DNA of 64,000 nt from Gymnopus androsaceus JB14 (lineage: Eukaryota > Basidiomycota > Agaricomycetes > Agaricales > Omphalotaceae), in NCBI GenBank assembly GCA_009733575.1, contig ML769384.1, positions 127,257 to 191,256 on the forward strand, read 5' to 3'. The first letter of the stretch is position 1. Each line of letters opens with the position of its first letter. Both the position numbers and the translations under genes were made by a program. Positions 52,618-55,439 of this stretch are shown here, one piece after another. The notes under the pieces were generated by a model. It was not told the origin of the DNA. It searched no databases and saw nothing but the letters and a program-made list of their open reading frames with translations.

Positions 52618-55439
52618 TCAAATATACATAGTTTCTGGTGGCCGGCTGCAGACAATATTGACCAAGGGTTGAGTAGCTTCAGCTGTAAAGAGTGAAGGTA
52701 CTTTGAAGCCACTCTGTTTCCTAATGTGATACAGCTTCATTATCTCTTCCCGGATATATTCAGCCATTTTGCTGTGCTCATCATACCAAGTGATCAGAGA
52801 CTCAAGCCTGTCCGGGTCTTGAATATTGTAGATGTATATCTTCTCCATTACCAATGTTGTGTCTATTGAAATGAAGCGGTCAATCCCGGATGAAAAAATA
52901 GAATTGCAACTTGATTGCAACATACCTGCAACCAATTGCTCTGATTGGCAATATGATACTAAATTAAGGTCAACATCCTGTAATTCACCGGCAAAGTCTG
53001 AATGGCCTGGAGATCCAATGATTCGCAAGCTGTGGTCAAGCACAGACTCTAATTTATACACCAGCTGGTGCCCAGGGAGAAAAATGAATGAGCAAGCTTT
53101 TGCACTGTGTATTTACTCAACGTACTGTTTCACGCAATGATGCTACTGTCGCTAGCCCAGTTTGTGATCCCTTTGTCCAAATAGTTTCCCATGTCTCAAT
53201 AAAAGGGCCATTGCGAATCAATCGAATCGACTGTCGGTCATAGTTCCCTGCTCAACACCTGTCAGTGTAATAATAGAATGTAGATGAAGCTATACTGCTC
53301 ACAAAACATTCCATTTCTAAAGCAAAGTCAGTTAGTGAAATTGACATGCTGGACTAGTGTATAGGAATCACACACATGGTAGATGTAATGAGCTTAGTCT
53401 TTGTATCTGCATTCTGTGCAAAGGAAAAGAAGGTGCTGAGATCATGAAAATTCCTCTGTTTGTGCTCCTTCTCCAGTTGTTCTGGATCCTTAGGCTCTAG
53501 TGCATTCATTGTTTCCTGAATTAATTGATCCAGCCGGGTATTATCTGGTGTTGACTTATGGACTATAACACAAGGTCCAAGGTCAGTGGCTCCAAAAAAT
53601 ATAATTATTGCCTGCTTACCATCTGCCAAAGCCACAACAGCACTTGGAGGGTATGGCAAACTTTGTAAAGGCTGCTGATAGTGCTTTTTAAACTTTTCTG
53701 TTGCCTCTTTAATGGCCATCTCCTCAATTTCATCATCATCAACTTCATTGCCTTCTTCTTCTGCATCTTCTTCAATTTTTTGCTGAATATCCTGGACAAA
53801 GGCATCAAACTTGGTAATGATTGCAACTACAGGAACTGAATAATATAATTAGACTGGCTTATGACATTGAATAGATCACATCAATAATGAATAAATACCT
53901 TGTAGTTTATTGGAGAAAAACTCTTTTTCTGCATATTGTAAAGGTCTTGCATTCATTTCCACGCAGTACCTAATGATATATTTTGTTAACATGATGAAAC
54001 ATCATTCTGAAACATAGGAAATGCACACCAGATCAAATGTAGCTTGAGATTGATGTTTTCTTCCTTGGATCTTTTCTCAATAAAATTCTTGACAACATCA
54101 ACCTCTTTTCTATAGCCTGCTTCAAAACCCTCAGAATCATGAGCAACCATCCGGTCGTTTCCATCAAATTTGATCTCTTTCTCAATATCATGAATGCCCC
54201 TCTGTTAATAAAGATCAGTGACCTAGTAGCTATTTTGAGATGTATGCGGTATCTCACAGATGTACTTGGTACATCTACCTATAAACAAGAATATTTATGA
54301 ATACCAAGTGAAGATCACCTTGTCATCACTTACCATATTTCTACTGCATACCTACAGATGAATGTGAGTAAGCCTGAATAAAGTTACACATAACATGAAG
54401 CTCACCTTGCTGAGGATTGTAGTCTTTCCACAACCCGTCTTACCAATAATCAATATTCTGAATATTCGAAGGTTTTGTGGAACAGGAGCACTAGCAAGAT
54501 ATCTGGTAATTTCCTTCTCTGCTTCCTTAGAAGAAATCACTGGATGCTCGAGCACTGGATTGCTATCTTTCTCTGAGTCTTTAGGCTTGTTTTCAAATAA
54601 TCCAAACAATCCTTTGATCCCAGCAAGCTTTAGTGGTTTGGGTTGAACTCCAGATTGGAGCGCCGCGCGGGTGGCATGCAGGAACACTTCACGGACCCCA
54701 GCACCTGTTGCTGAGGAGCACTCCAGGTACATCATTGCACCAATCTTCTTGGAGACTTCCATGCCCTAGTGACGCATCGAAGGGAAACAGCTCTTAACTG
54801 TTAACAACTTGGACACACAATTGAATATTAGATACAAACCTCTTCATGTGTAACTGGGTGTTGGTTATACTCAGGCTGCCTAAGTCGCTCAATTGTCTTC
54901 GGATCATATCTATGATCACTTTTGCAGCCTACGAAGATGATAGGGATGCCCGGACAGAAATGTCTGACTTCGGCGATCCACTGTTTATAAAGCCCTTCAA
55001 CAACCTACAAAGATATTTGAAAATGATTAACAAACCTTTTCCTGAACATTTTCGAGCGAGTCCGGAGAATCGATGGCAAAGCAGATGACAACAACGTGTG
55101 TTTCGGGGTAGCTCAATGGACGAAGAAGATCATAGTCCTCTAGCCCGGAGGTATCCCACAAAGCCAGCTCGACATGTTTCCCATCCACTTCAATATCAGC
55201 AACGTAATTATCAAAAATAGTGAGAATATCTGCCTACAAAATAACATAATCTTCGAGCTGATGGCTTGCACAAAGTTGTAGAAAAACTCACCCGTCGAAA
55301 GTAACCGAGAGTAAGCTGAACTAGCAAAGTTGTCTGTACTTTTGGTATCAGCAATGAGCACTCAGTACCGAGTGCAAGGTCGCACCTTTCCGCAGTACCC
55401 ATCTCCAACTATAACAAGTTTCCTTCGTATCTCAGACAT
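52618..55439 (-). CDS. Rho1-like GTPase fused to a second P-loop GTPase domain, copy C, apparently intact
   Basis: Exons 55386-55439, 55292-55333, 55036-55233, 54840-54980 and 54406-54765 encode a Rho domain: MSEIRRKLVIVGDGYCGKTT (P-loop), LTIFDNYVADIEVDGKHVEL (switch I Thr kept), ALWDTSGLEDYDLLRPLSYP (switch II, with Leu where Rho has Gln63), IPIIFVGCKSD (G4), PKTIERL (fungal Rho1 signature), MMYLECSSATGAGVREVFLH (G5 and last helix). There is no CAAX box. A linker with KGLFGLFENKPK leads to a second G domain, RIFRILIIGKTGCGKTTILS, then MVAHDSEGFEAG, AIITKFDAF, an acidic helix, SLPYPPSAVVALAD, and a C-terminal region with VMEKIYIYNIQDPD ending SRPPETMYI at 52618. All joins I checked keep the frame. 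Likely a membrane-free, GTP-loaded two-switch protein; role unknown. Confidence 0.8.

Follow-up and report, generated by a model that had tools for sequence, protein, structure and literature searches.

A Rho1-derived domain and a second GTPase in one predicted protein of Gymnopus androsaceus

Few single-domain switches of eukaryotes are as conserved as the Rho GTPases. In contig ML769384.1 of Gymnopus androsaceus JB14 (GenBank assembly GCA_009733575.1), we analyzed a stretch of 64,000 nucleotides (positions 127,257 to 191,256 of the forward strand; hereafter the window, to which all coordinates refer) and found a gene, here called copy A, whose predicted protein carries a Rho domain followed by a second P-loop GTPase (Table 1). 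The fusion is an atypical Rho joined to a member of another GTPase group, and it recurs in two other fungal genera. Our interpretation, which we favor tentatively and to which we give somewhat less than an even chance, is that this single protein carries a hydrolysis-dead mimic of Rho1 on an IRG- or septin-like GTPase.

A single exon joins the two domains

The model of copy A was rebuilt by hand and by script, with both strands inspected. Its 14 introns are all GT-AG and 52-74 nucleotides long, and removing them leaves 666 codons followed by a stop at 52618. An earlier note on this DNA had placed the motifs of a Rho domain and of a second G domain in one in-frame chain, and we found them there, on the minus strand; it had left the exon chain across 54406-54765 in doubt, and this interval proved to be one open exon of 120 codons. 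Read from 54765 to 54406, the exon encodes the last residues of the Rho domain (ECSSATGAGVREVF), then the linker and the second domain's P-loop (GKTGCGKT), so the join needs no splicing. An open run of this length would arise by chance about once in 1,000 given the exon's own base composition, and in all four fusion copies of the genome (A, B, E, and F), three of which are broken elsewhere, the aligner read through the exon without a stop or frameshift.

Pfam searches with the whole protein gave the Ras family at 149 bits (cut-off 21.6, best stretch at residues 7-180) and MMR_HSR1 at 29.3 bits (cut-off 21.9, two stretches, the best at 248-367). The second half of copy A has intact G1, G3, and G4 motifs. 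Toward the C-terminus, a short exon encoding INGMF and the exon after it (WNYDR...) are backed by relatives, aligning with TNGMFWNHDR in two predicted proteins, P0001 and P0003.

The fusion recurs in other fungi

A protein search found both halves within single predicted proteins of Athelia psychrophila (P0001, 65% identity over 91% of the query, its Rho part beginning only at residue 57 of copy A) and Laccaria amethystina (P0002, 54% identity over 99% of the query). Each protein search scored about 8,000 candidates, and one of them lacked P0003 even though that sequence was in the query alignment; the numbers of relatives and fusions are therefore lower bounds.

The join is also present in P0127, from a Laccaria-like contig of 2,053 bases in the source 'lgn', which we take to consist of assembled archive reads. 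P0127 spans residues 118-356 of copy A and aligns without gaps at five of its intron positions. Beyond residue 356 the reading frame is lost, and the remaining tail fits the following Laccaria segment, read in a shifted frame, at 35 of 35 residues, compared with at most 16 matching residues among 50 shuffled tails. Together, the ungapped alignment and the fit of the tail make this DNA seem free of introns at six sites where copy A has them, like a spliced transcript, although it could also be a retrocopy.

P0003 and P0008 may be clipped fusions, since both start inside the G domain and the contigs of P0003 and P0001, both from Athelia psychrophila, are equal in size (146,113 bases); P0001 and P0003 may also be neighbors in that genome. 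Two relatives have other N-terminal regions. In P0012 an arrestin C-terminal domain precedes the same second GTPase, a different head on the same body, and in P0122 (Suillus subluteus) the stretch before the G domain resembles, by eye, the protein's own C-terminal region, perhaps reflecting a tandem arrangement or a misjoined model.

The Rho half derives from Rho1 and has lost switch and anchor features

The genome's true Rho1 (locus L034, contig C11) has four introns, all in phase 0, after residues 18, 32, 98, and 145 as aligned to copy A, and the fusion gene has introns at all four positions. Copy A is 70% identical to this Rho1 over 181 codons of residues 1-183. Rho1 itself lies on two contigs that encode the same protein, the second (L033, contig C300) with one frameshift by the aligner; these are perhaps two haplotypes or an assembly duplicate.

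We built a tree of 28 Rho domains: seven from fusions, eight from other loci of the genome, and 13 picked by hand from 120 listed matches. The fusion domains fell with fungal Rho1 (support 96/94). The five from this genome formed a group (100/97) with P0001 adjoining (88/90), and the place of P0002 was unresolved. A single clade of all seven fusion Rho halves was not rejected by the approximately unbiased (AU) test (p 0.42), and grouping them with other Rho classes gave a worse fit (AU p 0.031). By sequence, then, the Rho half is a descendant of Rho1.

Catalytic Gln63 (RhoA numbering) is present in the genome's Rho1 and absent from all seven fusion Rho domains that cover the position. It is replaced by Leu in copies A, C, and F, Ser in B, Ala in E, and Pro in P0001, and falls in a gap in P0002; E and P0002 differ in length nearby, and their alignment is unsure there. 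Leu63 blocks hydrolysis in RhoA, and the matches to a model of the Laccaria fusion include a solved structure under the title 'Constitutively Activated RhoA Mutant (Q63L)'. With Gln63 missing throughout, the Rho half probably no longer works as a Rho protein or as a normal switch. Tyr34 is lost in all five genome copies, and the G5 motif SAK reads SSA in A, C, and F, SSV in B, SSL in E, and SAR in P0001. The absence of a CAAX box, pointed out in the earlier note, was confirmed: copy A ends in MYI and P0002 in EVPG, compared with KKKGKCVVF in the genome's Rho1. An (L/I)KG(L/S) stretch recurs in the linker of all seven long sequences examined, P0127 has IKGLL upstream of the part searched, and two lone relatives, P0013 and P0015, end in similar basic, hydrophobic stretches (QKGLFSKIFKKKDK and GIKGLFKKKDK). 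A membrane role for these stretches is only a guess.

Family and predicted fold of the second half

Sequence comparison places the second half in a family of mushroom GTPases. Our tree of this half held 27 sequences, namely 22 of 31 search matches (nine omitted), P0003, and copies A, B, E, and F. The fusions together with P0003, P0006 (which is copy F), and P0008 formed one clade with support 100/100, separating 10 rows from 17. Within the tree, Athelia (Atheliales) grouped with Gymnopus (Agaricales), and Laccaria did not group with Gymnopus. Simple vertical descent, with Laccaria and Gymnopus second halves set against Athelia in line with their taxonomic orders, was rejected (AU p 0.0002, tested after the tree had been seen); horizontal transfer, or old duplicates followed by loss, would both explain this arrangement.

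For the lone relative P0011 (45% identity), the predicted fold resembles those of IRG immunity GTPases, among which we count GM4951, and of septins. The Pfam septin family scored 21.5 bits for copy A, below the cut-off of 26.2, and 28.8 bits for P0011, where the match covers only profile positions 2-57 of 280. No IRG family appeared among the best 25 of 44 Pfam matches for copy A or among the 11 families matching any of 32 relatives (E up to 0.001). A possible link to GIMAP/AIG1 was considered: no GIMAP was among the best 50 structure matches of P0011, and among the open-licence papers listed no title pointed to a fungal protein of this kind. For the full-length model of the Laccaria fusion, the best 50 Foldseek rows were all Rho proteins or Rho complexes; its Rho half is too weak for contacts between the halves to be judged.

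Copies, decay, and selection

The genome holds five Rho-bearing copies, four fusions (A, B, E, and F) and one truncated copy (C), of which A alone is intact. The fusions occupy two loci, on contigs C2 (A and B) and C140 (E and F). By the aligner, copy E has two frameshifts and two stops, with good alignment only to about residue 432, and copy F has two frameshifts. Copies A and F share all 14 intron positions and phases, and a lone G gene on contig C315 has seven of the 10 second-half introns of copy A at the same place and in the same phase. A genome scan with MMR_HSR1 (17 matches) missed the fusion loci and was not used for counts.

The earlier note had described the fusion as present twice in the window; copies A and B are both there, but B is broken and the note had omitted the truncated copy C. 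Its lone second domain at 33.6 kb does exist as a G-domain gene, though only as a distant relative. It was right that there are several copies, to which the locus on C140 adds, and right about nearby transposons, given the repeat element inside B and the Copia pieces between B and C. Its picture of a local, expanding family did not hold: the clade spans three genera, there is a second locus, and four of the five Rho-bearing copies are broken. Purely local expansion was rejected on the basis of the two loci and three genera. Because the clade is common to three genera and most copies are broken, the Rho-bearing copies look like an old duplication with decay.

We compared the ratio of nonsynonymous to synonymous substitution rates (dN/dS) in the two halves, with bootstrap intervals in parentheses. 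Between A and F it was 0.52 (0.37-0.78, 181 codons) for the Rho half and 0.24 (0.17-0.32, 413 codons) for the second half; between A and B, 0.45 (0.28-0.69) and 0.26 (0.19-0.38); and between A and E, 0.57 (0.37-0.81) and 0.31 (0.20-0.45). The second half was thus lower in all three pairs with A, with separate intervals only in A-F and overlapping ones in A-B and A-E. The two broken copies E and F gave 0.77 (0.54-1.13) and 0.61 (0.35-0.92). The Rho half did not exceed 1 in any pair with a value.

Candidate mechanism and alternatives

In the mechanism we propose, a duplicated Rho1 that has lost its catalytic glutamine and lipid tail is joined within one exon to a second GTPase of predicted IRG- or septin-like fold. 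Much of switch II and of the interswitch is preserved on the Rho surface, but GTP hydrolysis is not expected of it. Going by what is known of the family, a Rho half without Gln63 (and, in copy A, without the G5 lysine) would not cycle normally, and without a CAAX box it would sit where the second half carries it. It could then act as a bait or address, binding either attackers of Rho1 or the partners of Rho1. The second half might read out these contacts by nucleotide-dependent assembly, by analogy with IRGs and septins; the output might be a defense or a cell-wall response. The second half is probably the acting part, as its motifs are kept and it is the better conserved. A role in defense or non-self recognition is less probable than the mimic itself; the IRG-like predicted fold makes it more plausible.

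Several points weigh against this interpretation. Copy A is a predicted gene model, and no transcript of it was seen. P0002 keeps the G5 lysine (SSK), and the strongly altered N-terminal half of switch I in the genome copies speaks against the binding of all Rho1 partners. The fold model was made of P0011, not of copy A, and it matches IRG structures only at template modeling (TM) scores of 0.33-0.43 with a root-mean-square deviation of about 5-6 Å; septin structures come close to these scores when only the G domain is covered, and no IRG was among the best 60 of 83 PDB matches in a sequence-profile search. The model of the Laccaria fusion is weak in its Rho half. Since B, E, and F are broken, the dN/dS values mix old constraint with free decay; they mostly record the former and are no proof of constraint on copy A today. 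Finally, loss of function is possible, given that three of the four genome fusions are broken, that P0001 begins within the Rho domain, and that the P-loop of P0002 is shortened.

The alternative that survives best, though we regard it as unlikely, is a working atypical Rho-type signaling protein resembling Rnd, in which a Rho half that stays GTP-bound would keep Rho1 effectors switched on and the second half would do no more than position it. Copy A keeps Lys18, Thr19, Thr37, Asp59, and Gly62, is equal to Rho1 at 16 of 18 residues in 3-20, 15 of 16 in the interswitch, and 15 of 20 in switch II, and has at position 63 a leucine, the textbook activating change. Only 4 of 16 residues in 21-36 are those of Rho1, however, a stretch that is altered in all five genome copies, and there is no lipid box. 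The losses go further in other members: B has Ser37, E has Phe62, and both the P-loop and switch II of P0002 are shortened. The lower dN/dS of the second half also misfits a mere anchor.

Next comes the possibility, likewise unlikely, that the gene is a chimera in decay with no function today, in which case the fusion would be old, kept for a while, and now on its way out. The broken state of four of the five Rho-bearing copies fits this well, as do the missing Rho N-terminus of P0001, the lesions of P0002 in its P-loop and switch II, the transposon-rich surroundings, and the fact that dN/dS was measured by comparison with broken copies. A chimera in free decay is harder to reconcile with a copy A that is open over 666 codons in 15 exons, with A-F dN/dS values below 1 in both halves, intervals included, with a clade that persists in three genera, or with the existence of the spliced-looking relative P0127.

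We consider it improbable that the fusion is an integrated-decoy immune receptor, whose Rho1 half would bait attackers of Rho1 and whose IRG-like half would trigger a response. One study proposes integrated decoys in fungal NOD-like receptors (NLRs) of Sordariales (PMC12258605), where a duplicated housekeeping signaling domain likewise sits on a nucleotide-binding protein, and another describes the guarding of Rho proteins in animals (PMC11781737). The IRG-like fold predicted for the second half and the higher dN/dS of the Rho half point the same way, with the intervals of the two halves separating in A-F alone. Unlike those receptors, copy A has neither NACHT (16.0 bits, cut-off 26.7) nor NB-ARC (15.3 bits, cut-off 23.5) above the Pfam cut-off, so it is not an NLR, and no pair shows a Rho-half dN/dS above 1.

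An artefact of gene prediction that merged two adjoining genes is highly improbable: annotation often merges neighbors in this way, and Rho is combined with unrelated domains in many of the 120 protein matches listed, but read-through of two genes is rejected by a join that lies within a single exon, is unbroken in all four copies, and recurs in two other genera and in the intron-free fragment P0127.

Relation to known systems and significance

Compared with Rho1/RhoA, the Rho half is of the same family by sequence and has the four introns of the genome's Rho1; it differs by the loss in copy A of Gln63, Tyr34, the G5 lysine, and the CAAX box, and by the 483-residue linker and second half attached to it. 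Rnd, RhoH, and other atypical Rho proteins have also lost the catalytic glutamine and are thus likely not switches driven by GTPase-activating proteins, but they are single-domain and the fusion carries a second GTPase. The IRG proteins Irga6, Irgb6, and Irgb10 are set apart by the lack of a sequence-level match, the low TM scores, and the Rho1 origin of the N-terminal half here, and septins by the subthreshold Pfam score of copy A and the short profile match of P0011.

Miro (RHOT), as described in PMC8146680, likewise combines two GTPase domains in a single chain that lacks a CAAX box, with EF hands between the domains; in the fusion no EF hands were found, and its second domain comes from a different family. 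The same source describes big Ras GTPases of the TBRG-1 kind, which are large and have a poorly conserved G4. Miro and RhoBTB, from which the earlier note had distinguished the architecture, were rejected as identities for copy A, with no EF-hand or BTB family among the best 25 of its 44 Pfam matches (weakest E 0.014). No description of a Rho1-second GTPase architecture stood out among the open-licence full texts listed, a scope outside which most subscription papers lie.

A Rho1 copy without its catalytic glutamine and lipid anchor, serving as the head of a second GTPase in three genera, is a natural experiment on what else the Rho surface can do. If the second half is IRG-like in its action as well as in its predicted fold, it would be a fungal counterpart of an animal immunity GTPase family, and whether fungi have innate immunity other than that of NLRs could be tested directly. 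A broader idea, which we think rather unlikely, is that IRG-like guardian GTPases form a mushroom family whose N-terminal heads can be exchanged (Rho1, arrestin, or lipid-anchored), in which the Rho1 head would be an integrated decoy reporting attacks on Rho1, the master switch of the cell wall, and the gene would move between lineages, duplicate, and decay like an immune receptor.

Features and surroundings in the window

Table 1. Coordinates of the fusion gene, its parts, and related features in the window.
Feature	Coordinates	Strand	Description
Copy A, whole fusion gene	52618..55439	-	15 exons, 666 amino acids; spliced model, halves in the same order in P0001 (Rho N-terminus missing) and P0002
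Rho1-derived half, residues 1-183	54652..55439	-	Exons 1-4 and beginning of exon 5; supported by Pfam Ras and introns
Junction exon	54406..54765	-	Rho end, linker with GIKGLFGLF, P-loop of second domain; 120 open codons
Second half, residues 240-666	52618..54483	-	P-loop GTPase (GKTGCGKT, DSEG, TKFD) and helical C-terminal region
Copy B, broken fusion	35918..39434	-	Aligner places 5 frameshifts and 1 stop in 39560-36630; also interrupted by an insertion
669-bp element with 14-bp inverted ends (CAGCAAAACCTGGG)	36044..36712	+	Insertion near the end of copy B; occurs repeatedly in the genome
Copy C, truncated to the Rho half and linker	48127..49076	-	Broken start region, one further in-frame stop by the aligner, terminal stop in the linker
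D, lone distant G-domain gene	33625..34377	+	Spliced alignment to copy A and to P0133; C-terminal end not resolved

Short elements with inverted ends like CAGCAAAACCTGGG occur at 36044-36712, 47770-47910, and 30987-31251. The first of these, the 669-bp element, has many relatives in the genome, with long matches 73-94% identical (40 of 802 candidates scored). Pieces of Copia-type retrotransposons (RVT_2, gag) lie on the minus strand at 41117-42328 and 44870-45652, between copies B and C. The fusion copies sit in the AT-richer right part of the window. The GC-richer left part has conserved genes at 9933-10886 (-), 13005-13733 (+), and 18995-19699 (-) (GDP dissociation inhibitor, MCM OB domain, and Nramp). 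Two programs agree on a tRNA-Leu (AAG) gene at 15633-15726 (+).
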